Assembly: GCF_008831285.2 (NCBI RefSeq)
Contig: NC_045138.2
Location: forward strand, 35,081,115 to 35,145,114
Direction of reading: 5' to 3'
Origin: Nymphaea colorata
Lineage: Eukaryota > Streptophyta > Magnoliopsida > Nymphaeales > Nymphaeaceae
DNA: 64,000 nucleotides
The translations under genes and the position numbers were made by a program. A model generated the notes under the pieces. It searched no databases and was not told the DNA's origin. It was given only the letters and a program-made list of their open reading frames with translations. Each line of letters opens with the position of its first letter. Position 1 is the first letter of the stretch. Shown here in pieces: positions 3,803 through 58,968 of the stretch.

Positions 3803-3923
3803 CATAAACTCGTAAAGTTCACCATTATACCAATGCATCTAGTTGGCCATGCGTTGGTCGTGTTAAACTCGTAAAGTTCACCATTATACCAATGCATCTA
3901 GTTGGCCATGCGTTGGTCGTGTC
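3803..3923 (+). repeat. Local tandem duplication of ~61 bp within the array
   Basis: A stretch from TAAACTCGTAAAGTTCACC through GGCCATGCGTTGGTCGTGT occurs twice back to back (about 3803-3863 and 3864-3924). It covers the end of one unit and the landmark of the next. The second copy then continues normally into CAACCAGTCAGCC. This is a simple replication-slippage or unequal-exchange event. Confidence 0.8.
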
Positions 3924-4340
3924 AACCAGTCAGCCATTTATTTCAATTGCATCTAATTGACATTTTTAACTTGATGGTGGGCATGTAGCTTCATCGGGGT
4001 CTTAGAGCACTTGCCCTTTTGTCTTAGGCATATCCTCCAAAAGCTGACCATTATACCAATGCATGTAGTTGGTCATGCATTGGTCGTGTCAACCAGTCAG
4101 CCATTTATTTCAATTGCATCTAATTAAATTTTTAACTTGATTGTGAGCATGCTGCTTCATCAATATCATAAAGCAGTTCCGAGGTCTCACAAGACTGTTT
4201 TCCCTTTTGTTGTACATGATTCATCGTATCTTTTGCGGTCAAAATGAAACCATCACATATCATTTGAATCACATCCCATGAGCGCACTTGTCTAGTATTG
4301 CACGTTTTTCATTGACTTTCCTTTTGTCATACGCATAAAC

Positions 4341-4452
4341 TCGAGTTCTAGCACACGAAAGTCGAAGTATATTCTTTATTCGACACAAACTGTGTTTTTT
4401 TGAGGATCCGCCGTGATGATGAGAGAGATTTCTGCATATCCACCCGAATCGA
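4341..4452. other. Foreign ~110-bp insert replacing part of an array unit
   Basis: Within an otherwise regular unit, the expected TCCTAAAGCTGACCATTATACC segment is absent. In its place lies a sequence seen nowhere else in the array, starting near CGAGTTCTAGCACACG and ending near CCCGAATCGAGC, after which the unit resumes at ATGCATCTAGTTGG. I see no terminal inverted repeats or target duplication, so it may be filler from double-strand-break repair. Confidence 0.6.
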
Positions 4453-11280: not shown

Positions 11281-12670
11281 ACGTACTTGTAGGGTTCTGT
11301 AGAATGTAAGAAAAAGATTGACCGACCGATCGATCACTACGCGGTGAAATCAAGAACAATGATGGACGGTGAACTCTCTCTGGAAACCTCTCTATTGCCC
11401 TCGATCTCCGAACGGTCTTCTGTTTGTCGGCTTTCGATGGACCGATAGATCGACGATCGAGGGCCGAGGCCGATCGAACTCTTCTCCACTTCGCTCCTCT
11501 GTCTGTCGACCTTTTAGATGCCCCCCTTCCCTTCCAAGCAGTGGACCTAGCGATCGAACAGCATTGTTCTTGTGGGTCGAAAAATACCCTAATGAGAGCA
11601 GAAAAACAGAAAGAGCGAATGGAGGAGGGAGGAAACTTAGTCTTACTCTACCACCAGAGGCAAGTGGAGACTCTGGTCCAGCGGGAGGATGATGAATAGG
11701 AGCTGCTGCTCGCAATTCCTAATGATGAACTGCGGCAACCCACGCCTGCAATCTGCATCCTTCTTCCATCGTCGCTGCCATCGAGGATCCAGCCTCGCTC
11801 CGTGAGAGAGAGAGGGTGTGCTTTCCTTCCCTGGAACTAGCGGGAAAAAGAAAAGCCTTGTTGAAACAGTAACCGTTGAGAAGTTGCGTTTCTTGAACTT
11901 TATAACTGAATATTTGCATAACTCAAATCCTGTTGCCGCGCGGCTAATTCCCTCCCCAAGCAATAAAAAAAATCCGGCATAATGCCTTATTTTTCATTCA
12001 TTAATTAATGAGTTAACGATAATAAGTGTGAGAATATCAATGGATGAGATTTGAAGATGATGTATCTTTACATCTAATTTATTGGATATTCACTTGTTTA
12101 AATTCAACTTCAAAATCAAAGTGAATGTATATATTATATTTGAATCTGACTTTTATTGTCACAATTAAACCCGAGCTAGGATCCACTTTTAAATTCATAA
12201 CCACGTCTATTTAAAATTATGATATGCTCCGAACTAGTTTCAAGTTATATGGATGTTCGATATAGGAAATTTTATCTAATGTTTATTATCCAGGCATATA
12301 CTTTTTTAAGACAACTCTAGTCGAATATCATTTCTTAAAATTGAATCAAAAACCCATATTTTCCTGATCGAATGAATTTTTTTCTTCATATTCGGCAGAT
12401 TTAAAGCAGTGTAGCCGGATATCAGATCCAAATTCAAATGTCGGGTCATGAGATTCGGGTCATTATTGCTTCAAATGACGTCTTAGGCCTAAGCATATTC
12501 TAGTAATCCTTGTTGCTTGGATCAGAATCTATGGGCTGATTCCCTCTATTTTTATTTTTAAATCAATTTAAAATATTTTAAACTATTTTTTAATTTAATT
12601 AAGAAGTTAGCCCATCTCCATCTATATTTCATTCCCATGATTTCAGAAATTTGAGAAATAATGTGTCAAC

Positions 12671-12734
<64 letters not shown>

Positions 12735-14804
12735 CACAAAAAAAACATATGTTTGAATGGGGTTAATGTTTCTATGGAAAATCTAATGGCCCCGTTTTTT
12801 TGACCTACATTTGACACTAAAGCTAAAAACAACATGCAAATCATGTAGATTTCCGTTAATTAATAAAAAAAAAATCGGTTAATTTGAGAAGCACAAAACA
12901 GTAGTTATAATTTCTTGCAATATTTTAAACTATACATTTTTTAGTTATAGTTTCTTGCGATATTTTAAACTATGTATTTCCTTTTCAAATAGATAACTGA
13001 TCATAATCAGAGGAAAAAAGATTTATGAAAACACACTTGAGATTCCAGTAGGGTTTAATAAACTCCAAACTTTTTTGCCTTGTTATTTTGAACACAATTA
13101 AGAATTGAAAGAAACACCTGCATATATATTGGTATAAACTCCTGCATACACGGTCATACAGGATGATGCAATCCCATGCCGCAGTCTGAAGCAAAGTTGT
13201 CAAAAATTAAATTGGAAAATGAATCAAATTCCAGCAGTGAATTAGTGATAAATTGGAAAAGAATACGATTGTAGGCTTTTTTAGACAAAAAATAAAATAT
13301 AATTATTGAAAAATAAAAAAATATAAGAGATGGAATAAGATACTATAGCCATTTTCTATGGATTTAGATATTTGTAGGTTCTTAAAAATTTTGAATTTTA
13401 ACATAAAATATTATTGGAACCAAGTTTACATTAATTGGAATTTAACTGTTGCCATTTATCAATCCAACTACATGAAGTTGTGGTGGAATATTTCCTAGAT
13501 GGGGCGACCGAGGGGTGGAAATAGGTTGGTTCGGGCTGATCCGGACTTCATTGAGTCTAACATGCATGCTCGCATGTTTTAGACTCATGTGCAGAAATTT
13601 GAGTTTAGAATTGTTGAAATTTGTAGCCGATTATTTCTCTGATCTAAAAAATTTACATCCAATGGATTGGATCTTTTTATAGATCCTAGACTCCAATCTG
13701 CATTGAGACTTTACGGAATCCAGATCATAAGATAAAAAACCAGGCCCCATTATCTTTGCAAGACAAGTCATATGTGTCGTAATCGAGTCGCCGTGTGGAC
13801 TGGCTAGACAAATGCAATTACTTTAGGATTTTTATTTTCATTTTTCTTGTTGTTTCAATCAATTACAAATTTTCAAAAGCATGCACAAATTTTGATTAAG
13901 TAATAAAACCACTTTTAAGAATAAAAGACATTATGTAACTGTCGAGATGGCACTGGTGAAATCCCATGCAACTCGCTATAAAATGACAATAATGGTAAGA
14001 GCGTATATTATTTAATCATTTGTTTCATCACTTAAATTATAAAGGAAGCTAAAGATTAATTAAATGAAGCAATTCAAAATCTCAGTTTGCTGTGGTTAAA
14101 AAGTACTTTAAAGATTGTTTACGGAATATATGAGGTGCAATCATATAACAATTGTTGGGAATCTAATTGTCGAGAACCAACACATACATTTTGATTGTAT
14201 CTTTTAGTTTTAGAACCTGCATGTCATCCAGCCAACCTTCTCAAATTAACCAATTAATTCAATAAAAGATAAGCTATATAATCAAGACTAATGTTTTAAA
14301 TATTGGTTGTCGCTCTGCACATCGATTTACCTATTAATACATAATCGAAATTTATCACCAATTTTATTTTAAAATTACAGAAAATTAAACTATTTAATTA
14401 ATTAAAAAATGAACAACAAAAATTACACAGAACTATGTATGGGCCTTAGTTATATTGTGTGAATAAAAGGGTTTTTTCCATGAAAAGATGTTCAACGGTA
14501 CTGCCCCATATCCAACCCAAATCAAGGCCTTTTGAGAAAGAAAAAGAGGAAAGAGGAAAGTGATCGTTGAGGAAAGTACTCGTTGCAGTTTTCCGTGTTA
14601 GTGATCGTTGAGGAAAGCAGTCATTGCAGTTTTCCCAAGTTATCAGTTTCTCTCTCTCTTTTCTCTCTGGTCGGAGGAGGGTTTCCGAAGAGAGCCTCTG
14701 CCCTGGTCGGAGGAGGGTCTCTGCCCTTCCCTGCGGAGCTCAACCTCACGTCCCTCATGTCCAAGCTGGGGAGCAAGGACTAGGCGGATCTGCTTGCCAC
14801 CATC
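11281..14804. repeat. Left copy of 3.5-kb duplicated block (contig end)
   Basis: Runs from ACGTACTTGTAGGG at 11281 to CTTGCCACCATC immediately before the run of Ns. The same sequence restarts directly after the Ns and is near-identical throughout. It contains an AT microsatellite (about 12675-12733) and, at the end, the start of the frame containing LTSLMSKLGSKD. No confident gene lies inside. The open frames on both strands around 11369-11960 are duplicated along with the block and match nothing I know. Because the duplication begins and ends exactly at the gap edges, I read it as one locus present on two overlapping contigs. Confidence 0.93.
12674..12733. repeat. (TA)n microsatellite, left copy
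   Basis: About 30 TA units. The corresponding tract in the right copy (about 16296-16362) is interrupted by an AA and differs in length. Confidence 0.9.
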
Positions 14805-14904
14805 NNNNNNNNNNNNNNNNNNNNNNNNNNNNNNNNNNNNNNNNNNNNNNNNNNNNNNNNNNNNNNNNNNNNNNNNNNNNNNNNNNNNNNNNNNNNNNNN
14901 NNNN
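14805..14904. other. Assembly gap (exactly 100 N)
   Basis: One hundred consecutive Ns, the conventional placeholder for a gap of unknown size. The flanks are the two ends of one 3.5-kb sequence, so the true gap is probably negative (an overlap). Confidence 0.99.
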
Positions 14905-16300
14905 ACGTACTTGTAGGGTTCTGTAGAATGTAAGAAAAGATTGACCGACCGATCGATCACTACGCGGTGAAATCAAGAACAATGATGGACGGTGAACTCT
15001 CTCTGGAAACCTCTCTATTGCCCTCGATCTCCGAACGGTCTTCTGTTTGTCGGCTTTCGATGGACCGATAGATCGACGATCGAGGGCCGAGGCCGATCGA
15101 ACTCTTCTCCACTTCGCTCCTCTGTCTGTCGACCTTTTAGATGCCCCCCTTCCCTTCCAAGCAGTGGACCTAGCGATCGAACAGCATTGTTCTTGTGGGT
15201 CGAAAAATACCCTAATGAGAGCAGAAAAACAGAAAGAGCGAATGGAGGAGGGAGGAAACTTAGTCTTACTCTACCACCAGAGGCAAGTGGAGACTCTGGT
15301 CCAGCGGGAGGATGATGAATAGGAGCTGCTGCTCGCAATTCCTAATGATGAACTGCGGCAACCCACGCCTGCAATCTGCATCCTTCTTCCATCGTCGCTG
15401 CCATCGAGGATCCAGCCTCGCTCCGTGAGAGAGAGAGGGTGTGCTTTCCTTCCCTGGAACTAGCGGGAAAAAGAAAAGCCTTGTTGAAACAGTAACCGTT
15501 GAGAAGTTGCGTTTCTTGAACTTTATAACTGAATATTTGCATAACTCAAATCCTGTTGCCGCGCGGCTAATTCCCTCCCCAAGCAATAAAAAAAATCCGG
15601 CATAATGCCTTATTTTTCATTCATTAATTAATGAGTTAACGATAATAAGTGTGAGAATATCAATGGATGAGATTTGAAGATGATGTATCTTTACATCTAA
15701 TTTATTGGATATTCACTTGTTTAAATTCAACTTCAAAATCAAAGTGAATGTATATATTATATTTGAATCTGACTTTTATTGTCACAATTAAACCCGAGCT
15801 AGGATCCACTTTTAAATTCATAACCACGTCTATTTAAAATTATGATATGCTCCGAACTAGTTTCAAGTTATATGGATGTTCGATATAGGAAATTTTATCT
15901 AATGTTTATTATCCAGGCATATACTTTTTTAAGACAACTCTAGTCGAATATCATTTCTTAAAATTGAATCAAAAACCCATATTTTCCTGATCGAATGAAT
16001 TTTTTTCTTCATATTCGGCAGATTTAAAGCAGTGTAGCCGGATATCAGATCCAAATTCAAATGTCGGGTCATGAGATTCGGGTCATTATTGCTTCAAATG
16101 ACGTCTTAGGCCTAAGCATATTCTAGTAATCCTTGTTGCTTGGATCAGAATCTATGGGCTGATTCCCTCTATTTTTATTTTTAAATCAATTTAAAATATT
16201 TTAAACTATTTTTAATTTAATTAAGAAGTTAGCCCATCTCCATCTATATTTCATTCCCATGATTTCAGAAATTTGAGAAATAATGTGTCAACGTTTATAT

Positions 16301-16363
<63 letters not shown>

Positions 16364-18439
16364 CACAAAAAAAACATATGTTTGAATGGGGTTAATGTTT
16401 CTATGGAAAATCTAATGGCCCCGTTTTTTTGACCTACATTTGACACTAAAGCTAAAAACAACATGCAAATCATGTAGATTTCCGTTAAATTAATAAAAAA
16501 AAAATCGGTTAATTTGAGAAGCACAAAACAGTAGTTATAATTTCTTGCAATATTTTAAACTATACATTTTTTAGTTATAGTTTCTTGCGATATTTTAAAC
16601 TATGCATTTCCTTTTCAAATAGATAACTCATCATAATCAGAGGAAAAAAGATTTATGAAAACACACTTGAGATTCCAGTAGGGTTTAATAAACTCCAAAC
16701 TTTTTTGCCTTGTTATTTTGAACACAATTAAGAATTGAAAGAAACACCTGCATATATATTGGTATAAACTCCTGCATACACGGTCATACAGGATGATGCA
16801 ATCCCATGCCGCAGTCTGAAGCAAAGTTGTCAAAAATTAAAATTGGAAAATGAATCAAATCGCAGTGAATTAGTGATAAATTGGAAAAGAATACGATTGT
16901 AGGCTTTTTAGACAAAAAATAAAATATAATTATTGAAAAATAAAAAAATATAAGAGATGGAATAAGATACTATAGCCATTTTCTATGGATTTAGATATTT
17001 GTAGGTTCTTAAAATTTTGAATTTTAACATAAAATATTATTGGAACCAAGTTTACATTAATTGGAATTTAACTGTTGCCATTTATCAATCCAACTACATG
17101 AAGTTGTGGTGGAATATTTCCTAGATGGGGCGACCGAGGGGTGGAAATAGGTTGGTTTCGGGCTGATCCGGACTTCATTGAGTCTAACATGCATGCTCGC
17201 ATGTTTTAGACTCATGTGACAGAAATTTGAGTTTAGAATTGTTGAAATTTGTAGCCGATTATTTCTCTGATCTAAAAAATTTACATCCAATGGATTGGAT
17301 CTTTTTATAGATCCTAGACTCCAATCTGCATTGAGACTTTACGGAATCCAGATCATAAGATAAAAAACCAGGCCCCATTATCTTTGCAAGACAAGTCATA
17401 TGTGTTCGTAATCGAGTCGCCGTGTGGACTGGCTAGACAAATGCAATTACTTTAGGATTTTTATTTTCATTTTTCTTAGTTGTTTCAATCAATTACAAAT
17501 TTTCAAAAGCATGCACAAATTTTGATTAAGTAATAAAACCACTTTTAAGAATAAAAGACATTATGTAACTGTCGAGATGGCACTGGTGAAATCCCATGCA
17601 ACTCGCTATAAAATGACAAATAATGGTAAGAGCGTAATATTATTTAATCATTTGTTTCATCACTTAAATTATAAAGGAAGCTAAAGATTAATTAAATGAA
17701 GCAATTCAAAATCTCAGTTTGCTGTGGTTAAAAAGTACTTTAAAGATTGTTTACGGAATATATGAGGTGCAATCATATAACAATTGTTGGGAATCTAATT
17801 GTCGAGAACCCAACACATACATTTTGATTGTATCTTTTAGTTTTAGAACCTGCATGTCATCCAGCCAACCTTCTCAAATTTAACCAATTAATTCAATAAA
17901 AGATAAGCTATATAATCAAGACTAATGTTTTAAATATTGGTTGTCGCTCTGCACATCGATTTACCTATTAATACATAATCGAAATTTATCACCAATTTTA
18001 TTTTAAAATTACAGAAAATTAAACTATTTAATTAATTTAAAAAATGAACAACAAAAATTACACAGAACTATGTATGGGCCTTAGTTATATTGTGTGAATA
18101 AAAGGGTTTTTTCCATGAAAAGATGTTCAACGGTACTGCCCCATATCCAACCCAAATCAAGGCCTTTTGAGAAAGAAAAGAGGAAAGAGGAAAGTGATCG
18201 TTGAGGAAAGTACTCGTTGCAGTTTTCCGTGGTTAGTGATCGTTGAGGAAAGCAGTCATTGCAGTTTTCCCAAGTTATCAGTTTCTCTCTCTCTTTTCTC
18301 TCTGGTCGGAGGAGGGTTTCCGAAGAGAGCCTCTGCCCTGGTCGGAGGAGGGTCTCTGCCCTTCCCTGCGGAGCTCAACCTCACGTCCCTCATGTCCAAG
18401 CTGGGGAGCAAGGACTAGGCGGATCTGCTTGCCACCATC
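14905..18439. repeat. Right copy of 3.5-kb duplicated block (contig start)
   Basis: Begins at ACGTACTTGTAGGG directly after the Ns and parallels 11281-14804 to CTTGCCACCATC at 18439, then continues into unique sequence. The offset grows from 3,623 to 3,635 bp through single-base insertions and deletions in homopolymers (for example TTGGTTCGGG against TTGGTTTCGGG, and CTTGTTG against CTTAGTTG) and the TA tract, with few substitutions. That pattern fits long-read consensus error or two haplotypes better than an old duplication. Confidence 0.93.
16296..16362. repeat. (TA)n microsatellite, right copy
   Basis: Interrupted TA tract corresponding to the tract at 12674-12733. Confidence 0.88.
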
Positions 18440-29516: not shown

Positions 29517-31093
29517 TTACGTTGCTCCAACACCAAGGAAATCAATGAAGGGGAGATTTATCGTCTCGCTATCCTGGTTCGTCTCCCCTGCGTACTGCCA
29601 ACTCGCTCTCCCCTTCGCCATTATCTCTGCCTCCGAGATCTCGCTTTTAGAATTCGACACTACCACCATCGCCGAAGTAGGTGAATGATCATCATCGAAC
29701 CCCACACTGGAATCATCGAAAGTTCTTCCATAGACTGCTCCTGCTTTATCATTACAGCCTGCAAAACCCAAAAACGCACAAAGAATAAGGAAAACTTGCG
29801 TGGGGAAACAAAAGAACGAGACAAATCATAATGCAGGGAAATGTAGAGGTGGAGGACGGAACTAAGGAAAAGAACGAACCTGAGAGATATTCAAAGTATT
29901 GATTCAGCTGGTTCTGAACCAGGTGGGGTATAACCCCTAATGTAGGTTGGAAGCCATGAACGGGTTCCAACCTGGCAGATGAGGAAATGAGGGACAGGGG
30001 TGTGCAAGATGATGATGAGTCGTCCCTTGTGGACTTGCTACATGCATTAATATTTGACTCCATTTTCGCAGGATGAGGGTTGTATCCTGTTTTCCTCCTC
30101 CTGTAAGCACTGGATTGTTCCCTGTTTTTTCTTGCCATGATTACATGCCAGTGATTCTTCACTGCATTATCTGTCCTGCCAGGGAAAAGACGCGCAATCA
30201 TTGCCCACTTGTTACCATATAATCTATGAGCGGCCAGGAGCCTCTCCTCCTCTTCCTCACTGAATGCCCTTCTATTTATCCTTGGATCCAGCTGATTGAA
30301 CCATCTCAGTCTGCAACTCTTACCTTTTTATCGAAAAGAACAAATGATGACGAAAAAATAAACCAACAATATTAATCGAGAGAGAGAGAGAGGTGTAAGA
30401 GATGTCCTTCCTATTGTCTGCTTTACAAGGCTCACCTGATCTACCTTCCAGTTTTTCTGCAATCAGGTTCCAGTTTTGAGGGCCATATTGAGCGACAAGC
30501 TCTCGGAGTTTGATGTCTTCAGTGGGTTTCCAGTGGCCCCTAGCACATAATTTAGACTGGAGACTGTCTGACTCTTTGACGAAGAAATTTTCGGCCACAT
30601 CCTCGCAGGCTGAGCACCTGCCTCCGTCGCCCTTACTCTGATTTACCTCATTGTATTCTTCACTACCAGCCCTCTCACGGGCATTCAAGAGAGAGCAGCT
30701 TTTCTGTTTACAGATGCCTTCGGAGGACGTGCGATCACCAACCTCCACAGATTCCAAGCTCCAGACTTTCCTCCCTGGTGGGCTCAACACCTGAAAGGCT
30801 ATCTCACTCTTGCACTGGCTCTCTCCTGACGAGGAACCTGATACCGCAAACCCATGAGCTGCAGCAGCAGGAAGGGGACCCGGGTTTAGTGATAGGGAGG
30901 AGAACGCAGGGTGGGCATCCACGATACCACCGTCGTGAGAACTGCTCACCTTGGAGGGAGAGGAGCTGGAATATAGATCATAAGAAATGCATCTAGGATG
31001 AAGAATGCAGAGTCCCGCAGTGTAGGTTCTGAGCCCCCTCTCGCCGTCCTCTTCTCGACATACGACCCTAGGCACTAATGGCTTCAGACTCAT
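29517..31093 (-). CDS. R2R3-MYB transcription factor, subgroup 21 (MYB52/54/56/105/117-like)
   Basis: Three exons on the minus strand: 30436-31093, 29880-30323 and 29517-29758, with GT/AG introns of 112 and 121 bp. The joined frame is 1,344 nt (447 aa). Residues ~1-181 are a Ser/Gly-rich, probably disordered region. R2 begins at [20 protein letters not shown] and R3 at [14 protein letters not shown], with DNA-recognition helices in [20 protein letters not shown] and [18 protein letters not shown]. Exon 1 ends within the GRSG|KSCR codon, the usual R2R3-MYB intron position. The C-terminus ends [11 protein letters not shown], matching the FDFLGVG-type end of subgroup 21. Members bind DNA in the nucleus and regulate organ boundary formation, axillary meristems and cell-wall deposition; which role applies here is inference. 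ATG at 31091-31093 is the only in-frame start seen upstream of the domain in this exon. The N-terminal region is rather long for the family. No lesions seen. Confidence 0.93.
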
Positions 31094-34000
31094 CCTAGCT
31101 TAAATAGAGGTGAGCAGCACTCTTCTCTTTTTTGTTTATCTTTCTTCTTTACGGGGAAGAAAGGTGAACGAAAGAAAGCAGGCGATGGAATGAAACTGAA
31201 AGCATAAAAGAAGGAAGGTTATGAGAGTGGAAGGGGAAATGTTACTTCATCTGGGTATCTAGAGATGGGGGGCGGGGAGGCGACAGGCAAAAAGGAGGAG
31301 AGGGTAAATAGAGATTGCAGAAACCCACACGGTTTGTTTTTGTAAACAGCAACCTCCTTTTGAGTCAGAGTTCCCAAAATTGAGACTGATCTCCCTGCTC
31401 CCTTCTGCCCTTCTTCTCCCCTTCTTTTCCTTTTCCCTTCGCAGTTTCTCTTCTCTTCCTTTTTTTCTTCTTTTTCTCTTAAACGTTAACCCATAATAGC
31501 TCAAGCTCAGAGCGAGGCGCTCGTGTGGGTGTTGGGTCTCCTTAAATCAGCTTGTCTTCCTCGGCTGTCCCTCTCTTCCTTGACAAATCAACCAGACTTT
31601 GCTTGTCTGATTCCGCAACCCTGACTCTCTCTCTCTCTCTCTTTCTTAATGTGAATAAATAAATGAAAAGAATTCCGAGTATGTCGCCGAAAAGAATTTC
31701 ATTTTGCATACATCGAGATCAAACAAACAAAAGCTCTGATCAACGGAACCCTTTTTCTCTAGCAACCTCCGCCACCGGGAAAACTTTTTTGTTACCTGAT
31801 GCCGTTATCCCAAACATTAGTTTATTGTTAATTTATGTTTCATTATGCTATTGATGTTCAGATAAAACTCGAATGTCCTCGACTGATGAAATCATTGTTG
31901 TGAGCGGCACGGCACCGATTATCTTCTCTAAGCCCCTTCATCCCGTCTTGATCTGCAAAGTTAATTCACTGTTGCTCCCCTTCTAAATCAATAGAGCAAC
32001 CAATCAACTGAACCGCCAAGTAAATTGTTGCACTCATTCTTTTCACTTATTCGTCTCTCACAATTTTTTACTGCTACTTAAATTAAATCTTAAAAATGTT
32101 GTTGCTTGAGTATGCTTGACATTATTAAAAATTTCGTCTTTAGATTAAACAAAAAGGCAGAGGAGGATTAGTGGCCATAACACTATAACTAACTTATAGG
32201 ACATGTTTCTTATTTTTGTTTTTATTTTCCATAACATAACTGTTTTTTACCGTATAAATTCAGTACCGTAACTTTTATCAAATAAAAAATAATATTTTTA
32301 AATGTTTTTTTATTAAAATTTATCAGTTATATCCATAATATTTTAAAATACAATAAACCTAAAAAATGCAGTTTCACATGCTTTCTCTTGTAAGAAACCG
32401 TGGAACATCACAAAGTGGGCATTGAGCGGTGACCTTGACATGCTTCCTAAAATGGTTATTGTCCAACAGATGGATTCGAACCATCTTCCAAAGTAATATA
32501 ACAAGGACTTTTAGTTTTTTACAGCTAGCTAGTTGGAGAAGATGACTATGCACATCAAGGTGTTGGGTGGGCTTAGGTTGCGGCTCGGCGGAAGCTGATT
32601 GCTCATTGCTGTTCCAGACGTACGCAGAGGTGACATGTACGAAAAAATTTATTAACCTTTCATGTAAATACATGTTACGGGAACTTGTGGATCTCAACCA
32701 TGTGTTATTAGCATGGGGTGTGATTGAATGGGGCTGCTCATCGGAAGCTGTGTCGGTAGACCGGTCAAGAGCAGGGAGCGGGGCATGGGCGAGTGAATTA
32801 GAGAAGATTTTGGGGTTAAAAAGCGGTGATCGGTCGCCGGGCGTTGTGTGAATTGTACTGCAGCATGTGGGTCAAAGATCGCGGTCGTGTGGATGTGGAC
32901 CGGCCAGGCGGAGCGGAAACCAAGAACCAGACAGCAGGGCGACGGTACGGAATGAGAAATTTAATGGGTTTGTGTTGAATCTAGCAGGAGGGTCGTCGTT
33001 CGCTTTGGATGGTTTTTGGTCGTGGCATCAATAAATAAATAAATAGGTGAAGGACTAAGATTAATAAATTGGGTTCACTTCACGGGCATTATAAGTCGTG
33101 TGAAGATTGCCGTGTACGAATTTGATCCGTTTTGCTTTTGCTTGCGTTAGTAACAAGGCAGGTATTTAATATATGGGGGAATGGGATTTGCAGTACTTGA
33201 GTATATTCGGTTTGGCGGGTAAGGCCACTTAATTTGCGAGTGAGTGATTTAAGGCACGGTTGAAAGCATGAGAACAAAAGTTCTCCCCCGCGCCTCCTGA
33301 AAACGGCAAAAAGCAGTTTCGTTGAAGCGCGACTGCGAAAGGAGGATGGAGAGAGGTAAAGCCCAAGCCTAGCCATGCTAGAAAGGCTGGCTATAGTCGT
33401 CGCGAGTAGGAAGAAATAGTGGAATACGCAAGGCCTGAACGAGTCAAATGGCCGCAGTCTCTGGCCCTCTTTCCCTCCCGACCCAAAGCAACTATGTTGA
33501 GAAAGTAACAAACTTCGCCCTCTCTCCCTCGTTTGCTTCCGCTTGCCAGACATCACAGGAATGAATAGGAAAAAGAGAATCGCACGATCACGAGATGCAA
33601 GGACGGCTTATGGCTTGTGGGTCACTTCGTCTTTGACCGGGTAGAAGACTCATGAGAACTAGCAGACAGAGGAGGCCGCCATCCTCCCGACCACTTCAAT
33701 TGTAGGGGTCCTCCCCTTCCCTTCCAACCTATCAACTCTCAATTGCAAGGCCGGGGAGGAAGGGTGGAAATTGCCCTTCCGCTCCATCGTTTTTTTTTCC
33801 TTTCCCCTGAGCTTTGGAAGTGGCCTTTTGTCAATAATTCAAATACAAGCTTCTCATTTCCAATTTTTACCACTTCCCTTTTTCTAACAACCGGTCAAAA
33901 AACTGGCCTCAGGTTAAACAATCCGTTAACATCTATAATTCTCATCAGCGACCTTTTATATTAAAAAAGCGAAAGGACGTTATGAGTATTCTAGTTATTG

Positions 34001-34378: not shown

Positions 34379-34383
34379 CTCAA
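34379..34383. other. Target-site duplication CTCAA, left
   Basis: CTCAA immediately before the left LTR, matched by CTCAA at 39415-39419. Confidence 0.9.
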
Positions 34384-34671
34384 TGTGAAATATTTTTCTC
34401 ATGAGGATGGGCACGTTGAAGAGGAACAAGAAAAGAATTTTTATCAATGGAAGGTGATAATTTTTTTTATTAAAGATTCAAGATAATATATACAATGGGT
34501 TTACAACGGTAAGGAGTGAGCTCTCCTTCCTTCACGTTAAAAGTTTTCCAAAGATACATTTGATATTCAAGACAAGTTGAGGTGGAGAGCCTTGACATGA
34601 ACGTTGAAGTTGAGGAAGAAGTTGAGATGAAATGCCGTTGGATTTGAACGTTGTAAAACTTGCTTTTAACA
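34384..34671 (-). repeat. 3' LTR of the copia element
   Basis: 288 bp, TGTGAAAT...TTTTAACA in plus orientation. The terminal TGT/ACA agrees with the right copy apart from a substitution at the fourth base. Confidence 0.95.
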
Positions 34672-34682
34672 CTCCCCCTTCA
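34672..34682 (-). other. Polypurine tract of the copia element
   Basis: On the minus strand GAAGGGGGAG lies directly against the 3' LTR, the expected position of the plus-strand primer. Confidence 0.88.
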
Positions 34683-35211
34683 AACAGGTGTCTAAAGATT
34701 GATGACACCCAGTTTGAATAATAGATGATAAAAACCTTCTTTTCCTAATGCTTTCGTAAATAAGTCTGCCAGCTGGTCTTTGCTTCGATATAGCATGTGC
34801 GTATTGTCCCCCTCGTACAATGTGACAATCTGGTTCAATATGTTTCATACACTCATGAAAAACTGGATTTGCAGCTATATGTAATGCTGCTTGATTGTCA
34901 CAGAAAATTGTTACTGGATGTAGTTGACGTACTCCAAACTCGTTCAATAGATATCTCAACCATGTTATTTCGCATACCACATTTGCCATGAATCTATATT
35001 CAGCTTCAGCAGAGGATCGTGATGCTGTTTGTTGTTTCTTTGACTTCCAAGATATGGGAACTGGGCCAAGAAACACACAATAACCAGTGATAGATCGTCG
35101 CGTTTGACGGCAGGTGGCCCAATCTGAACCACAAAAGACAGTTAACTGCAAATTATTCTCTTTACTCATTAGGATGCCTTGGCCTGGGTTTTTCTTGAGA
35201 TATCGAATCAC
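34672..35211 (-). pseudogene. Copia RNase H region (defective)
   Basis: Continues the RT frame after a TGA at 35212-35214. Visible signatures: CGSDWATCRQTRRSITGYC, SWKSKKQQTASRSSAEAEYR, CDNQAALHIAANPVFHE and KHIEPDCHIVR, the plant copia RNase H. Beyond that a frameshift scrambles the last ~60 residues. The last codons overlap the start of the LTR. Confidence 0.92.
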
Positions 35212-36521
35212 TCAAAGTGCCGCTTGTAGGTGAGGTATGCGTGGTTGTTGCATGAACCTGCTTAGGACGTGTACTGCATATTGTATATCTAGGCGTGTAA
35301 TGCTGAGGTAGATTAATCTCCCAACCAGTCGACGATATTGTGTTGGATCCTTGATGTAGTCTCCATGATCTTCATCCAACCCATGTTTTTGTTCCATGGG
35401 TGTTTCTGCTGGTTTTGCTCCCAAAAAACCTGTTTCATGAATAATATCTAGTGCATATTTTTGTTGTGAGAGATATATACCTTTTAAAGAACGAACAATT
35501 TCAATTCCCAAAAAATACTTAGGTTTGCCTAAGTCTTTCATGTGAAATTTTTGACATAAAAAAGATTTGAAGTTATCAATTGCATCCTTCACGTTTCCTG
35601 CAATTATTAAGTCATCAACGTATACAAGAATGACAAGAAAAATTTTATCATGCTTGAATGTAAAAAGGGAGTGGTCAACTTTAGATTGCGTAAAACCATA
35701 CTCTTTTAGAGCAGTTGAAAGCTTGTGAAACCAATTTCTTGGAGATTGTTTTAAACCGTAAAGGGATTTATGTAATTTACATACCTGATTCTCCCCTTGT
35801 TGAACATACCCTTGAGGTATTTTCATGTAAACTTCCTCATGCAAGTCACCATGTAGAAAGGCATTATTGACGTCCATTTGACACATGACCCAATCTTGAT
35901 TAGCTGCTATAGTGAAAAAGGTACATACCGTGACCATTTTTACAACTGGAGCGAAAGTTTCATTATAGTCCAATCCCTCTTGTTGAGCATATCCTTTGGC
36001 CACCAGCCTCGCCTTGTAACGTTCTATAGACCCATCTGAATTTAGTTTAATCTTATAAACCCATTTGCACCCGATTGGTTTCACCCCGATTGGAAGTGAA
36101 GTAATAGTCCAAGTCTTGTTTTCTTGTAAGCACTAATCTCGCTATCCATGGCGTCTCTCCATTCCTTATGTTGAATGACTTCTTCAAAGGTTTGTGGCTC
36201 AGACTTGAAAACAAGAGATGTGAGAAACGCAAAATGATTACTAGAAAACCGATGAAAAGAAATAAAATTTCTTATAGGATACCTCGTTCCTTGTTGATAA
36301 CCTGATTTGGAGATGTCGTTGGTTGAGGGTGAGGTAAGAAGTGAACATTGGAAATCTTTCAACCATACCGTTGGTTTTCTTACACGAGTAGATCTCCTAG
36401 ATACTAAAGATGGATTTGAATCTGAATCTGGATCAAATGAAGATGGGTTTGGATCTGAATCTGGATCAAACGAAGATGGGTTTGGTTCATTTAAAGATGG
36501 ATCTGGATCTGGATTAGACAA
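35212..36521 (-). pseudogene. Copia reverse transcriptase region (defective)
   Basis: The upstream frame (36081-36521) carries a Pro/Asp/Ser-rich linker with DPDSDPNPSSF-type repeats and RRSTRVRKPTVWLKD, typical of the copia integrase-RT junction, and then shifts frame near 36105. The next frame (35212-36084) holds the RT: KPIGCKWVYKIK, ARLVAKGYAQQEG, DVNNAFLHGDL, LYGLKQSPRNW, catalytic YVDD in VYVDDLIIAG, and GRLIYLS. It ends at a TGA that sits in the frame that reopens as RNase H. RT converts element RNA to DNA in the cytoplasmic particle. Confidence 0.95.
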
Positions 36522-37050
36522 TGATAGGTTTGGTTGATTGGTTTCTCGATCAATGTTTTCTAGGTTAAGGGAATTAGAAATGGACGTGTTATTCCTTATA
36601 GCTTGAGTAGGATGGATGTCTAGATCATAAGGAATGGGTAAAGCAATACATTTTTCACCAACTTTTTAATTTTGAAAAGGAAAAACATTTTCATGAAAGA
36701 TTACATCGCGACTAACAAACACCTTGTGGGTCTCAAGATCATAAAGTTTATAGGCTTTTTGTCCGTCAGGGTACCCAACAAAAATGCATTTAATCGCTCT
36801 AGAATCGAATTTGTGTTTGTGTTGGCATGTATTTGTGGCATAACATAAGGATCCAAAAACTCTAAGATGTTTGATGTTTGTTTTTTTTTAAATAATATTT
36901 CAAAAGGGGATTTTCCGTTTAGTTTTTTTTATGGTAATCGGTTAATTAGATATGTGGCTGTCAAAACACATTCACCCCAAAAATGCAAAGGTAAGTTGGC
37001 TTCAAAACGTAAGGCCCTTGCAACTTCAAGGAGATGGCGGTGTTTACGTT
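36522..37050 (-). pseudogene. Copia integrase C-terminal region, frameshifted
   Basis: After a frameshift near 37065 the minus strand reads [20 protein letters not shown] and [19 protein letters not shown], then in other frames [20 protein letters not shown] and [14 protein letters not shown]. This carries the third catalytic Glu region and C-terminal part of the copia integrase, split among frames by indels and stops. Confidence 0.9.
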
Positions 37051-38373
37051 CTACAACGCCATTTTGTGAGGGGTAGCCACACAACTATGTTGATGAGTGG
37101 TACCTTGTTTTTTTAAAAAATCTTTCATTTCATATGAAAAAAATTCAGTCTCATTGTCCGTTCGCAAAGATTTAATTTGACAATTAAACTGCGTTTTAAT
37201 CAAAGCAAAATTTTTTTTGATGAGATGCAATGTTTCATATTTATGTCTCATTAAGAAAATCCAAGTAGCACGAGAGTAATCATCTACAATGCTAAGAAAA
37301 TAATGCGCACCAGAAATAGTGGATTGAGCATACGGGCCCCAAATATCACAATGAATTAAATCAAAATGATGCGTTGTAGATATTTCACTCAAACCAAACT
37401 TAAGTCGAGTTTGTTTTGCTCGATGGCAAGCATCACAAACATAGTCATCATTCAAGTCAAAGTTTAAATCTAAATAATTGTTCACAAGCTTTAAGCGAGA
37501 ATGAGAAACATGACCTAATCTTTTATGCCAAAGTTCATGAATAGAAACGGCAAGACAAGCTTGAACAAATGGTGGTCTTTGTTGAAGAACATATAGTCCA
37601 CCTTTTACCTCACCCTGCCCAATCGTCATCTTCGATTCCAGGTCCTGTATAATACAATGATCAAACAGAAAAGTTATGGAACAATTTAAATTTTTAGTTA
37701 ATTCACTAACTGAAAGTAAATTAACTTTAAAAGATGGAATGCATAAAACATCATTAGCTTCAAACAAAGGCAATGATAGTTTACCCGCCTGATGAACTGG
37801 AATTGTTTTTCCATTTGGTAATGTCATGGGAACATTGCATGATTTTAAGTTTTGGAGCATGTTTTCATCAGCACAAATATGGCAACTCGCTCCCGAGTCA
37901 ATAATCCAAGTACAAGATTGAGTATTAATAGAACAAATGTTACCTCCATGAACGACATTACCTGCAAAGTTGATATTGGCCTGCTGGTTTTTCACCAAGG
38001 ATAGCAATTTGTGATATTCTTCAAGAGTAAATGCTGGAGCAGAACCTTTAGTGTCTAGTCCTTCACAACCAAGACCCCCAACACCATCAAAGGGAGTCGG
38101 TTTCACATCAAGTGTATTGTTCATTTGAGACACATTAGCTGCAATTGAAGATTTAAAATTAGGATCATAGAAACGATGTCCTGAAGGGTACCCAATGAGT
38201 TTGAAGCACTTTTCTTTAATGTGTCTGATTCCTCGACAATGGCTACAAACAGGCCGATTTTGACATCCTCCTTTGGTTCTATAAAAGCCACCATAGTTAG
38301 CATCGTGACTTTTAACGTGCTCACTTTGTTTGACTGCCAAGGCTGCAGTCCCTCCATTAGCCGAACCAGAAAA
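37051..38373 (-). pseudogene. Copia zinc knuckle, protease and integrase N-terminal region
   Basis: Same frame as gag, after the TGA at 38374-38376. Contains a CX2CX4HX4C zinc knuckle (CSHCRGIRHIKEKC), protease motif IDSGASCHIC, the pre-integrase block LWHKRLGHVSHSRL with the downstream CDACHRAKQTR of the HHCC finger, and integrase core Asp blocks in FDLIHCDIWGPY and SLRTDNETEF. The frame is lost near the QNGVVER block, where indels move the remaining core into another frame. Confidence 0.95.
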
Positions 38374-39114
38374 TCATGTCTCACGCTGTTTTTCTTCTTG
38401 AAGAACCATCGCATAAACTTTGTTGACATTGGGAAGGGGATAAAGAAGTAAAATCTGGCCTCTAACAGCATTATAGGAATCATTGAGACCCATTAGAAAT
38501 TGGATAACACGTTCCCTTTGAATTTGTTCCGAATACGACTTCATGGCCCCACAAGAACACATGGGAATGAGAGAATATGAACTAAGCTCGTCCCAAAGAG
38601 CTTTTAATTTGGTAAAATATAATGCAACAGTCATAGTATCTTGTTGTAGACGACTAATAGAACTCTGGATTTGATAGATCCGAGGGACAAGGCTTTGAAT
38701 AAATCGTTCTCGCAAATCTTCCCAAACTTCTCTAGCATTAGTCGAATAAATAACACTCTCTACAATATCTTTGTTGACTGAATTTAAGATCCAAGAAAGT
38801 ATCATATTGTTGGACCGAACCCATAGATGATAGCTCAGATCATCTTTTTCTGGCTCCTTGATAGAACCATCAATGAAACCAATTTTGTATTTTGCTGAAA
38901 GAGCCATCAACATGGCTCGGCTCCACGTCCCATAATTTTCCCCATTAAAATGTTGTGAAACCAAGACATTTCCAGGATTATCAGAATGGTGAATAAAGAA
39001 TGGGTTAGACATCACCTGGGACAGATCTGCATCGTTGGGATCAACATGAACGACATCATCCGCCTTTTGTCTATCGCTGTTATCATCAACTCCACGATCT
39101 GCCATTCCCCTCAT
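38374..39114 (-). CDS. Copia gag polyprotein N-terminal part
   Basis: 246 codons starting at ATG 39112-39114, just inside the primer site. Matches the plant copia gag family: NPFFIHHSDNPGNVLVSQHF, GENYGTWSRAMLMALSAKYK, GFIDGSI, WVRSNNMILSWILNSVNKDI, LRERF. It ends in a TGA (38374-38376) after EEKQRET, and the same frame continues into the zinc knuckle. The TGA may be decay (CGA to TGA by CpG deamination is plausible) or could separate gag from pol. Confidence 0.93.
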   Translation of the reverse strand: MRGMADRGVDDNSDRQKADDVVHVDPNDADLSQVMSNPFFIHHSDNPGNVLVSQHFNGENYGTWSRAMLMALSAKYKIGFIDGSIKEPEKDDLSYHLWVRSNNMILSWILNSVNKDIVESVIYSTNAREVWEDLRERFIQSLVPRIYQIQSSISRLQQDTMTVALYFTKLKALWDELSSYSLIPMCSCGAMKSYSEQIQRERVIQFLMGLNDSYNAVRGQILLLYPLPNVNKVYAMVLQEEKQRET

Positions 39115-39127
39115 GGCTCTGATACCA
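39115..39127 (-). other. Primer-binding site of the copia element
   Basis: The minus strand reads TGGTATCAGAGCC directly after the 5' LTR; this is complementary to the 3' end of plant initiator methionine tRNA, the usual copia primer. Confidence 0.95.
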
Positions 39128-39414
39128 TGTTAAATATTTTTCTCATGATGATGGGCACGTTGAAGAGGAACAAGAAAAGAATTTTTATCAATGGAAGGTG
39201 ATAATTTATTTATTAAAGATTCAAGATAATATATACAATGGGTTTACAACGGTAAGGAGTGAGCTCTCCTTCCTTCAAGTTAAAAGTTTTCCAAAGATAC
39301 ATCTGATATTCAAGGCAAGTTGAGGTGGAGAGCCTTGACATGAACGTTGAAGTTGAGGAAGACGTTGAGATGAAATGCCATTGGATTTGAACGTTGTAAA
39401 ACTTGCTTTTAACA
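39128..39414 (-). repeat. 5' LTR of the copia element
   Basis: 287 bp, TGTTAAAT...TTTTAACA in plus orientation. The perfect TGTTAAA/TTTAACA ends confirm the boundaries. Confidence 0.95.
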
Positions 39415-39419
39415 CTCAA
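39415..39419. other. Target-site duplication CTCAA, right
   Basis: CTCAA immediately after the right LTR, identical to 34379-34383. Confidence 0.9.
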
Positions 39420-42590: not shown

Positions 42591-42901
42591 AGAGGATGAA
42601 GAAAAAGAAAAAAGAGAACTAGAAGTGGAGGCAAATTAATGTCAATATCGAGAAGCCAAATTCAAGTTAGAACGTGCACAGCCATCGGCGGTGGTGCACC
42701 TCAATTTTGGAAAAGTTGAATCGAGCTTTTCTTTTTTTTTTCAAAATTTAAATCACTAGTAAATAAAATTTTAAAAACTATATAATGGCTCCCTTAAAGA
42801 ATGGTTCGGCCCGCCTTTGGAAAGGACATTCCAAAAGCACCACCACACTAGGAGGCACACAACAAATATACAATCAAGAAAAAAAAACAAAGGATTGGGA
42901 T

Positions 42902-43620
42902 TGTTGCCGGTCGATTGTGTATGGTCCGACCAAGCTAGTAAAAAGATATGCTGTTTGGCCAACTTAGGCATAGCTCAAGAAGCATGTGGGATTAATCAGA
43001 CACTGAGTCAAGCAGAAAGCAATGTACGTGGAATGTATAGTGCAGTGGTGCAGAGACGAAGTGCATAAATGCATCATGGTCATCAGTCCCCTTTGGAAGT
43101 GCAAGTTCGTCGTTGGGGAATCAAATGAGTTTCCACGCATAACGTTTGGATGCGCAAGGGGGTGCGCATAGGTTAGGGGCAATTCTCCCAGTGGATGCAT
43201 ATACTGCATTCCATAACCGCGTAGAGTCACGCGGGGGTGAGCAAGTGAATGTTCATTGTTGAGTAGGGTGAGGGTCGGCCACCTTACTTAATGACATATA
43301 GTCATTAACTGGCTTTGGCTGGGGACTTCCTCCCAAGGGAAGTCTACCCCCACCCAGATTTCGTATGAAAGTAGATAGACAATTGGAGGAATAACGAAGT
43401 TCTGACATGGCCTCATGGCCACGGCTTGCCGATGACCTACAAGAAGATAAACCTGGGTGATGGTGTGCCAAGTGCGTAGCACTCATCGTCTAGTCCACAG
43501 TTCTAGAAGATAGATGAACGCTTCCGCTAACTCAAGAGAGAGTCGGGCTGGCCGAAGGCTTTGGAGAGACCTTCGGCGCCACGCGGGCCGAATAAGGCGT
43601 TAAAAAGTTGGCTCGTGACA
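42902..43620 (+). repeat. 5' LTR of the non-autonomous element
   Basis: 719 bp, TGTTGCCGG...GGCTCGTGACA. Confidence 0.92.
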
Positions 43621-44224
43621 AGTGGTATCAGAGCAGACGATTTCTCGAAGGGTACTTGTAACATGAGAATGCTGCGATGATAATAAACAAGTGGTTCTGA
43701 AGAAACATTTGCTTGTGTTGGTGCCCTATGGTTTGGGCATGTTCGTCGATCACTAGTTTAGGTGACTGCGTTTGTGTTGGTCAGATGGACATCACACGTT
43801 TCGAAGACAGTATCTGGGCGTCAGGAGCAGAAGGGCCAGGAGAACCGCTCGCTGAGACAGATAGGGTGAGAGGCTCGATGTGGAAAAGGATTGTCCATGA
43901 GGGCAAGTGCTCTTAGTGTTGACATGACTCGAGGAATGAGCATGTGTACGAGTTGGCAACACAGCTTGAAAATTTCAAACTTAGTGGTTGTCGAAGATAT
44001 TCCGAACTTTACTAAGAAAAAGTGCAAACAATGACAAAAAAGTGTGAAGAAACTACGAATGGACTAGAGGCAAAACACCCGATAGGCAAGTAGTCGCGAC
44101 GTGACGGGTGTGTCAATCAGACGAACGTAGGCTCAGTTTAAAAGAAATGAAGGGAATAGTTGCTGAACTTCTCTTGCCAGGGGCACAGTCACTGAGGACA
44201 ATGACGATTTTGGCTGTGGGAGAA
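43621..44224 (+). other. Internal region of the non-autonomous element
   Basis: 604 bp starting with AG then the primer site TGGTATCAGAGC (43623-43634). The longest plus-strand frame (43713-43916) has no recognised domain. The region ends with GTGGGAGAA (44216-44224). Confidence 0.85.
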
Positions 44225-44941
44225 TGTTGCTGGCCGACTGTGTTTGGCCCGACCAAGCTAGTGGAAGGATATGCTGCTTGGCCAGCTTAGGCATACCTCG
44301 GGAAACATGTTGGATCAATTGGACGCTGAGTCAAGCAGAAAGCAATGCACGTGAAATGTGCAGTGCGGTGGTGCACAGACGAAGCGTATAAATGCATCAT
44401 GGTCATCAGTTTCTTTGGAAGTGCAAGTCTGTCATTGGGGAATCAAATGGGTTCCCCACGCGTAGCGTTTGGATGCGCAAGGGGGTGCACGTGGGTTAGG
44501 GGAAATTTTCTCAGTGGACGCATATGTTGCATTCCACAACCGCGTAATGTCACGCGGGGTGAAAAGTGAATGTTCATCGTCGAGTAGGGCGATGGTCGGC
44601 CGCCTTACTTAATGACATATAGCCGTCAACTGGCTTCGACTGGGAACTTCTTCATAAGGGAAGTTTACCCCTACTCAGATTTTGTATGAAAGTAGATAGA
44701 CACTTAGAGGAACGACGAAGTTCTGATCAGGCCTCATGGCCACGGCTTACCGATAGCTTACAAGGAGATAAACTTGAGTGATGGTGTGTCGAGTGCATAG
44801 CACTCCTCGTCTAGTCTACAGTTCTAGAAGATAGATGAACGCTTCCGCTAACTCAAGAGAGAGTCGGGCTGGCCGAAAGCTTTGGAGAGACCTTCGGTGC
44901 TGCGCGGGCCGAATAAGGCTTGAAAAAGTTGGCCCGTGACA
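44225..44941 (+). repeat. 3' LTR of the non-autonomous element
   Basis: 717 bp, TGTTGCTGG...GGCCCGTGACA, followed by target duplication GGGAT. Confidence 0.92.
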
Positions 44942-44946
44942 GGGAT

Positions 44947-56549: not shown

Positions 56550-58968
56550 TTAGGTGCTCTCCTGAAATGTTTGTGACCGGGATAATGCAGCAGGATTAGC
56601 GTGCAAGACTGGTGAATCATCCGGGGTGTTCTCCTTGGTTTCCGTTTTGAGTTGAAACGCTTTCACAAGTCCACCCTTTGTAGCACCTTCACCGCATTCA
56701 TGTTTGATACCTAGGGTAGCCCAAATAGAGCTTTTAGCAGCCTCATCTGGATCATCAATTCTGAGCGTCTTCGGTACCCATAGACACCTCTCCGGCTTGT
56801 CTTCAGTCTGCAGGTTTCTATCCCTAGAATGCTTCCCTAGGGTTGGAGAACTACTTTCTGAACAGCTGCTGTTACTGGTAGATGAAGTAGTTGATAAACA
56901 AAGAGCAGAACCCATCCATGGCATACTCCATGCTCCACCAGCCCAGCCAGGCATACAGCCCCAATATGATGCTGGAACAAATGGAAATGGAACGGCAGGT
57001 GCACAGAAAGCAGGGGCAGCAACTATCGGAGGTGGGCGCCATTGAATTGAACTAGGACTGCTGTTTTCTGGACCACAATACAATTTTGAAGTGCAATGCG
57101 CAGATTGTACAGGAGCAATGGCATTCCATCCGGGGTTCCAAGGATATGGCCATGAAGCACCAGCAAAGCATTGAATGAGTGGAGTCGGACGTTTACAATC
57201 ACTTGAGTTGCCCCCTTGTTCCATATTAAGCATGCTCTCTTGCAACTCGTTTGCCTTGCTAGTTGGAGCTGTCACCGAGCCGCATGATAACTCCTCTACA
57301 TTTTCACCACATGCAGCAGAGTGCACCTCAACATTCCTTTTAGCTGTCATAGCCGGCTCCCCTAAGTTTAGCACTGTTGTCATGGATTCACAAAGTGGTG
57401 CTTCAGACCCAAACTTAAGAACAGTGCCGTTGCTCTTCAATGCCCTTGCTGGTGGTGAAAGACCACAAGAGATAACTTGAGGATGAGTGGCAGCTGCTGT
57501 GTCTACCCTGGCAGTGGCCATGCCTTCAGACAACATTACATGCCGATAATGTGATGCAGAGTGTTTATTCTTGCGCCTACCAGCACCAATAGGCACATTT
57601 CTCATTGTCCCACCTGCTGTCCAGTACCTTTGGCAATTCTTACAGAAGTGCCTCGGTTGATTAACATTGTAATTGTTGTAATAACAGAACTTGGTGTCTA
57701 GACTGTTGCAGCGTGGACAAGGGAGAACCTTGTCTGGTTTCTTCAACGCTTTCTCGTTTCCAGATTCAGTTTCATTATGATCTTCCTCGGCTGCTTTTGC
57801 TGACTTGAAATTGATAGATGCTTTATCACACTCAGGATTTGCATCACTTGGCGCCCTCACTTCTTCCCTGCGATCATTCAAACAAGAGGAAGAGGCACCA
57901 GGCTTACACGCTTCTTCCAGGCAAGCTACTGTTGGGTCATCAAGTTTAGCTTCTCTGCAAGCATCCTGAGAATTGGAAGAAAAATCCGAGTGTTCAGAAT
58001 GAAAGATTATTGATCAGCATGCGCGGATGCATACACACACACACAGAGACCAACAGTTTACTCACAATCTACACCATCTGCTTTCACAAAATATCTCTCT
58101 GGATCCTCCGACATTTAGCCAGACAATATATCAATTCTTCTTGCGCAGCCAACTGTGATGGTATAAATGCAAGAAGAATATGATTCATGCAGTAACAGCA
58201 GTGCTGTGAAATTCTCGACATGCAGATGCAGAAATCTTTGTATAATTCTATTGGGGTACAACAAACCATACTGGTAGAGTCCAACTCCTAACATGAAACC
58301 GTAAGAGTCATCAGGAAGAAAAGAAATTTGGACCTAAAGATGGATGAAATAGATTATAAACTCTTTTCTCTGGAGAGGGGAAAAGAGAAAAGCAATGGGC
58401 TGAAGCTGGGGCAACGACAAAGGGGTCGAAGGCTAAAAAAATCTAACTTCACGCACAAGAACAAGAAAAAGGGCAGATCGATGTGTATCTAAGACAAGAC
58501 CCAGATGCTTGAAACATCGGTGTGAAAGATAGGACTCGTATGTCATCCGAATTAAGGGAAACAAGGGGGGGAAATGGACGACTAAACAGAGGAATGAAAT
58601 TGAATCTAGGTCATCGCAGTTTGGACAACCAACCGTACCACTCTTTTCTTTTTGTGGCACAAACAGAGAAACTTCTCTCAGGGTTTCCAACTCTGCAGAA
58701 ACCATAGAGAGGTGTAGCAGAATGAGGATTACCGATGCTCCACTGAATACCACCAAGTCTCTGTCTATCTCCAGATTAAACAAAGAACAAGAGAGAGAGA
58801 GAGAGAGAGTACCTCATCGTGTGTGGGTGGGGAGGATGGAGGTGGCGTGGGAGAAGCTACGTCGGAGGCGTGGTCGGCGGTGAAGGAATCGGCTGCCTTG
58901 GCCTCCTGCACCGGGATGGTCTTTCCGAAAAGCTTGATGGCCGGATCCCTGCTGCTATCAGAAGACAT
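56550..58968 (-). CDS. CDF: Cycling Dof factor (CDF-type Dof zinc-finger transcription factor)
   Basis: Two exons on the minus strand: 58813-58968 (52 codons, start ATG 58966-58968) and 56550-57965, joined by an 847-bp intron (GAG|GTACTC to TTCTCAG|GATGC) in phase 0. The product is 523 aa. The N-terminus [20 protein letters not shown] is the conserved CDF motif, reported in this family as a TOPLESS corepressor contact. The single Dof finger starts at residue ~135 with CPRC and its second Cys pair in CKNCQRYW, followed by the basic RRKNK. The Trp-rich [10 protein letters not shown] block and the C-terminal [20 protein letters not shown] plus TLGIK block (residues ~449-473) are typical of CDFs and lie in the region linked to FKF1/GI-dependent turnover. 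CDFs bind AAAG sites in the nucleus and repress CONSTANS and FT, delaying flowering. No lesions seen. The gene symbol is given only at family level. Confidence 0.95.
57966..58812 (-). other. Intron of the CDF gene
   Basis: 847 bp with GT and AG borders; contains a GA repeat near 58791-58810 next to the donor. Short frames inside it (58433-58783 minus, 58522-58707 plus) are not supported. Confidence 0.85.

Follow-up and report, generated by a model that had tools for sequence, protein, structure and literature searches.

Non-autonomous LTR retrotransposons have been described in several sizes. TRIMs are defined as elements under 1,500 bp with two or more copies bearing different TSDs and without retrotransposon proteins; among 289 published subfamilies, 22% are 1,000 bp or more and 68% have LTRs under 250 bp (PMC4717578). 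LARDs are described as having a non-coding interior that is usually over 4 kb (PMC4668562). Retrozymes bear a hammerhead and move through circular RNA, and the account of them gives a non-coding centre of about 300-600 bp, a tRNA-Met primer site (PBS) and ends that match only the terminal boxes of Ty3-gypsy elements (PMC4918200). In wheat, RLG_Sabrina and RLG_WHAM are reported to have little in common with their gypsy partner RLG_Wilma beyond the primer site, the LTR terminus and a short motif (PMC9744471). Also in wheat, Veju, likewise non-autonomous, is an LTR element measuring 2,530 bp (PMC5659041), and PlantLTRdb records 42,497 non-autonomous elements of unknown class, the middle half of which measure 5.7-8.0 kb (PMC10025401).

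The element studied here lies in a 64,000-nucleotide stretch of Nymphaea colorata DNA, the whole of which we call the window, and belongs to a well-supported, recently copied family (the compact family) whose size falls in the gap between TRIMs and LARDs. Two LTRs, a PBS, a purine tract and a TSD are present and no pol proteins were found, as expected of a non-autonomous LTR element. Like TRIMs, for which tandem LTR-interior arrays are also known (PMC4717578), the family has two LTRs, 5-bp TSDs that differ between copies and no retrotransposon proteins (Pfam, interiors of the window copy and of a second copy, L013). It differs from them in length, at 2.03 kb for the family, 2,040 bp for the window element and 1.93-2.05 kb for the other two-LTR single units (2.5 kb in one, L016), and in having LTRs of about 715 bp. 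A size rule such as the 1,500-bp limit would therefore miss it. A non-coding interior between LTRs is common to the compact family and LARDs, but here it is only 0.6 kb (598-616 bp, or 1,075 bp in one copy, L016). The same two Pfam searches found no gag domain, which separates the family from TR-GAG elements and led us to reject a hidden gag. Nor did we find 5S or tRNA-derived LTR sequence of the Cassandra or Helenus kind: Rfam gave no match for the window element at E up to 5, and ARAGORN found no tRNA gene in the window or in six family loci, so that a Pol III TRIM was likewise rejected.

Veju resembles the window element in total size, the one feature on which we liken them. Because of Veju and the 22% of TRIM subfamilies that reach 1,000 bp, an intermediate size is not unheard of; the PlantLTRdb range, on the other hand, gives no sign that 2-kb elements are common. 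The Sabrina/WHAM-Wilma pairs conserve the LTR 5' terminus (PMC9744471), whereas the compact family resembles gypsy elements at the LTR 3' end. We infer that its likeness to a presumed helper is confined to the ends, as in retrozymes or the wheat pairs, and these ends provide a natural set for asking what minimum of sequence an element that depends on a helper has to have in common with it. Going by the published descriptions compared above, the compact element looks like a new family of an already known kind. Three LTR or LTR-end/PBS patterns found nothing in a set of viral contigs that may omit this or near genomes and in which plant DNA is not expected.

Anatomy of the window copy

Alignment and reading of the sequence delimit a complete LTR element on the plus strand, which with its TSDs spans 42897-44946 of the window. 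The 5' LTR (LTR5, 42902-43620) is 719 bp long, runs from TGTTGCC to CGTGACA with TG...CA ends, and is found at many places in the genome; the 3' LTR (LTR3, 44225-44941) is 717 bp long. GGGAT stands at either side, at 42897-42901 and 44942-44946. Between the LTRs lies a non-coding interior of 604 bp (43621-44224), in which the 12-base PBS TGGTATCAGAGC starts two bases after LTR5 (43623-43634) and the polypurine tract TGGCTGTGGGAGAA ends at the LTR3 boundary (44211-44224). The PBS is complementary to what we take to be the sequence of the plant initiator Met tRNA. The original prediction had described these parts, with LTRs of about 718 bp making up some 70% of the element and no enzyme domains between them, and it held on each point: the LTR share is 1436/2040, or 70%, and in the interior's three forward reading frames no Pfam family scored above cut-off, two sub-threshold matches having E values of 0.021 and 0.11. 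The longest open stretch of the interior in six frames, 80 codons, is not longer than in shuffled sequences (mean 85). Since a TSD stands at both TG/CA ends and 19 of the 25 tested family members have perfect TSDs, the element is more than chance, and an explanation by chance repeats is ruled out.

Over 715 aligned positions the window LTRs show 87.0% identity, with 93 substitutions (78 transitions and 15 transversions), which gives K = 0.147. At a substitution rate of 1.3e-8 per site per year, this divergence corresponds to an age of ~5.7 million years. The window copy is therefore old, a point absent from the original prediction. A motif scan found a possible TATA box, TATAAA, in LTR3 (44387-44392, LTR position 163), where LTR5 has CATAAA, and a possible poly(A) signal, AATAAG, in LTR5 (43591-43596, LTR position 690). 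Near the LTR end, a hairpin of eight pairs (43551-43577) has each of its pairs kept in 29 to 33 of 33 aligned LTRs, an alignment that counts both LTRs of many copies. No pair shows compensatory changes on both sides and there is no covariation support in these 33 LTRs; the hairpin is therefore not evidence of selection on RNA structure. A 60-bp stretch is identical between the two window LTRs, a length that 0.009 of shuffles reach. As it is not specially conserved across the family, we rejected special conservation and take it as chance or local conversion.

Family members and their insertion sites

The genome from which the window comes (407.8 Mb, 783 contigs) was searched with both parts of the element. 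For the LTR query there were 307 candidate places, and scoring 40 of them yielded 42 matches; for the interior query there were 109, and scoring 40 yielded 41 matches (84-100% identity), counting the one in the window itself. From among the LTR matches 30 further loci were fetched, as a rule with flanks of only about 3 to 5 kb per side, and the element was mapped on each. They comprise complete elements, solo LTRs, truncated copies, a tandem LTR-interior-LTR-interior-LTR copy (L011), a copy of ~2.5 kb in total with a duplicated interior of 1,075 bp (L016) and an array of the compact element (L032). Stretches of L032 that match nothing in the element are taken as repeated flanking DNA, and a second interior type was rejected on this reading. 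Interiors also form a tandem array at C8:11852032-11855271. The architecture is otherwise fixed: family LTRs are 711-719 bp long, the 13 copies with a single interior that were measured have interiors of 598-616 bp, and all two-LTR single units but L016 fall within 1.93-2.05 kb.

Insertion sites were compared in 25 of the 31 loci (the window and the 30 fetched); L023, L024, L026, L027, L028 and L032, which are truncated, lack an end or are arrays, were left out. A perfect 5-bp TSD was found in 19 of the 25, with 17 distinct sequences among them. These 19 are 12 two-LTR units, the tandem copy L011, whose TSD surrounds the whole, and six solo LTRs; the TSD of L018, CACAC, lies inside a CA repeat and is weak evidence. 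In L014 and L025 four of five bases match, and L015, L019, L036 and L038 failed the test. The search for other copies with different TSDs that had been proposed as a check thus found a family, and the claim that the element moved as a unit is supported by these 17 different TSD sequences.

The spacing of the termini recurs genome-wide, which agrees with the original prediction of a non-autonomous LTR family sized between TRIMs and LARDs. The pattern of LTR end plus PBS has 34 exact sites in the genome, and at up to two mismatches CGTGACAAGTGGTATCAGAGC has 258, as against none for the reversed pattern. The corresponding pattern of purine tract plus LTR start, also at up to two mismatches, has 62 sites (reversed control, 1). 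We listed 100 of the 258 primer sites and paired them with the purine-tract sites. A partner lies at 532-610 bp for 35 of the 100, 33 of these at 588-610 bp, and one more primer site is paired at 1,518 bp with a partner common to one of the 35. Three are paired at 5.6, 6.3 and 16.8 kb, and the remaining 61 of the 100 have no purine-tract partner within 20 kb.

Some members are much younger than the window copy. The LTRs of L012, L013 and L034 are 99.6%, 98.9% and 98.4% identical, respectively, and each copy has a perfect TSD, the 5' LTR of L034 being about 95 bp shorter; those of L015 are 99.7% identical, in a copy without a TSD. Interiors of L012, L013 and L015 are 609-616 bp long and contain no forward open stretch over 105 aa, and that of L013 has no Pfam match. 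Several family interiors also contain antisense open stretches of 142-145 aa; that of L013 has no Pfam match, and we take them as non-coding. As the young copies are equally compact and no coding interior was found in them, it is the compact form itself that has recently been copied, and the copies are not decayed leftovers. The family thus has a fixed architecture, independent TSDs and recent copying, with no Pfam-recognisable coding in the interiors of the window copy and L013. LTRs occur in two variants, which differ in the presence or absence of about 10 nt just ahead of the LTR end, and the youngest copies (L012, L013, L015 and L034) carry the short type.

Ty3/gypsy elements and the helper question

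We consider it likely that the compact elements form a multicopy LTR family of ~2.03 kb, without a recognisable protein, that is mobilised in trans, most plausibly by Ty3/gypsy chromovirus-type elements, and that the window holds an old copy of it. Mobilisation by another element is what we infer from the sequences, and Ty3/gypsy chromovirus-type elements of the same genome are probably the likeliest helpers, because gypsy LTR 3' ends and the primer region of one gypsy locus, L039, resemble those of the compact family. RNA would be transcribed from the LTR, using the candidate TATAAA in LTR3 and AATAAG near the LTR ends, and would be packaged by proteins of the other element. The same proteins would carry out reverse transcription, primed by initiator-Met tRNA, and the helper's integrase would insert the product and leave the 5-bp TSD.

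The resemblance came from the boundary of LTR and primer site. Among the 100 listed sites, the AG type (CGTGACA-AG-primer site) is that of the compact family, and 52 are of an AC type. One AC-type locus, L039 (C1:10423550-10426449), belongs to Ty3/gypsy and carries protease and Tf2-1 SH3 domains; its capsid/gag matches are weaker and below their cut-offs, and neither RT nor integrase core was found in the stretch read. Its LTR is about 413 bp, against about 715 bp in the compact family, and LTRs of its relatives open with TGTTCCC, as in L036, or with a close variant of it. L023 includes a sister gypsy copy in which the zinc-binding, core and SH3 domains of an integrase are present. When L039 and L012 are compared over the 33 nt that precede the searched pattern, the score is 22, where 5000 shuffles had a mean of -10.2, an sd of 5.7 and a maximum of 14. 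By blastn, L039 matches 11 of 30 family loci over 47-50 nt at 83-86% identity across the LTR end and primer site (E up to 1e-5), and the other 19 have no match there that reaches this E value. The window copy matches over 11 nt at the LTR end, with an E value of 0.89, and over 15 nt at the primer site, with one of 0.21, and nothing else in it is significant. Comparing the last 60 nt of seven gypsy LTRs with five compact LTRs gave z values of 1.3 to 7.2, with 300 shuffles per comparison; L012 and L013 mostly had the highest values and L035 the weakest (1.3 to 3.8). These tests include bases used in selection: the pattern by which L039 was selected extends over the LTR's last 7 nt, and the gypsy ends in the 60-nt test were trimmed at a motif formed by the final 9 nt.

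The original prediction had proposed looking for a larger element with the same LTR ends and primer site. Such likeness was found at Ty3/gypsy LTR 3' ends and in the primer region, the latter read at L039 only. It does not extend to LTR bodies and interiors, in which the compact family shows no resemblance to Ty3/gypsy chromovirus-type elements. At the LTR 5' end the likeness is small, with only TGTT-CC and a similar purine tract in common. With an LTR of its own of ~715 bp and only the terminal stretch and primer region gypsy-like, the compact family may have arisen other than by deletion from its helper, a view we hold tentatively. If it is true, the Ty3/gypsy machinery accepts a nearly unrelated RNA, as in retrozymes but without a ribozyme.

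Another possibility is that the compact family goes back to a larger autonomous element, bearing these same 711-719-bp LTRs and extant in the genome or formerly so, that lost its internal part by deletion. We think this unlikely, though it has a precedent in the TRIM relatives reported for 11 of 289 subfamilies (PMC4717578), and two of the long pairings could mark a parent. In one, a PBS at C1:35276487 and a purine tract at C1:35282796 lie 6,309 bp apart; in the other, a PBS at C3:10711589 and a purine tract at C3:10717199 lie 5,610 bp apart. However, the C1 pair may be a compact copy carrying another element inserted into it, and the C3 pair joins an AC-type primer site to a compact-type purine-tract box and may be two neighbours. 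No long element with compact LTRs was found in the window or the 30 loci with their flanks, as a rule only ~3 to 5 kb per side.

A Copia element acting as helper is a good deal less probable than the Ty3/gypsy helper we prefer. The window holds a Copia copy on the minus strand (34383-39417), with LTRs of about 292 bp that are 96.9% identical and with gag, integrase and RT domains in several frames. Its 12-base primer site is identical to that of the compact element, and the larger TRIM relatives found in flowering plants were Ty1-copia (PMC4717578). Its primer site, however, apparently abuts the LTR, unlike those of the compact family and L039, where two nucleotides lie in between, and its LTR end is unlike that of the compact family: the last 60 nt of this single Copia control gave z values of -0.9 to 1.7 against the five compact LTRs. 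On this evidence we rejected the window Copia element as parent of the compact element.

That the family is a retrozyme is very improbable. The non-coding interior, tRNA-Met PBS, Ty3-gypsy-like terminal boxes and unrelated body are those described for retrozymes (PMC4918200), and on the minus strand each of the two window LTRs has a CTGATGA, at matching positions. Nevertheless, no CTGATGA is followed by GAAA within 40 bases on either strand, the window element has no Rfam match, and those in L012, L013 and L015 are four sub-threshold miRNA matches, all outside the element. A known hammerhead is thus ruled out in the window copy, L012, L013 and L015; in addition, the compact LTRs are twice as long (about 715 bp against about 350) and the TSD is 5 bp rather than 4. 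Finally, the notion that the copies are segmental duplicates or array units, to which the tandem arrays (L011, L032 and that on C8) lend some colour, can practically be dismissed, being refuted for loci with perfect, different TSDs by the 17 distinct sequences among 19, spread over many contigs (L018 weakly).

To return to Ty3/gypsy helpers, L039-type LTRs occur in pairs about 5.09 kb apart at C6:20443104/20448195 and C7:9562446/9567536, each with a listed AC-type primer site at the 5' LTR. From LTR spacing alone, this suggests gypsy elements of about 5.5 kb with an L039-type LTR. None of the 150 scored genome places for RT, out of 3,705 candidates, falls inside C6:20443104-20448615 or C7:9562446-9567955. 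The L039 family itself has 372 candidate places, and at least 30 of the best-scored relatives join gag-protease straight to the integrase tail, in a ranking that favours copies laid out like the query. This family, too, seems to be largely non-autonomous; L039 and its relatives appear to form another non-autonomous family, TR-GAG-like and about 3.2 kb long.

Other features of the window and genome

The window begins with a tandem array of about 305-bp and 167-bp units (1-5800). At 11281-18439, a gap of 100 N (14805-14904) is flanked by ~3.5 kb on each side that are 99.2% identical in direct orientation, which probably reflects a duplicated haplotype or an assembly artefact. Two genes lie on the minus strand, one with a MYB domain (29752-31099) and one encoding a Dof zinc finger (56550-58013). 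Together with the Copia element they mark the window as plant DNA, Dof being a plant domain. Elsewhere in the genome, C3:28.4-30.9 Mb and many small contigs hold dense, nearly equal-scoring RT matches, many of them in open frames of ~1,700 aa, which suggests that another RT element underwent a recent burst.
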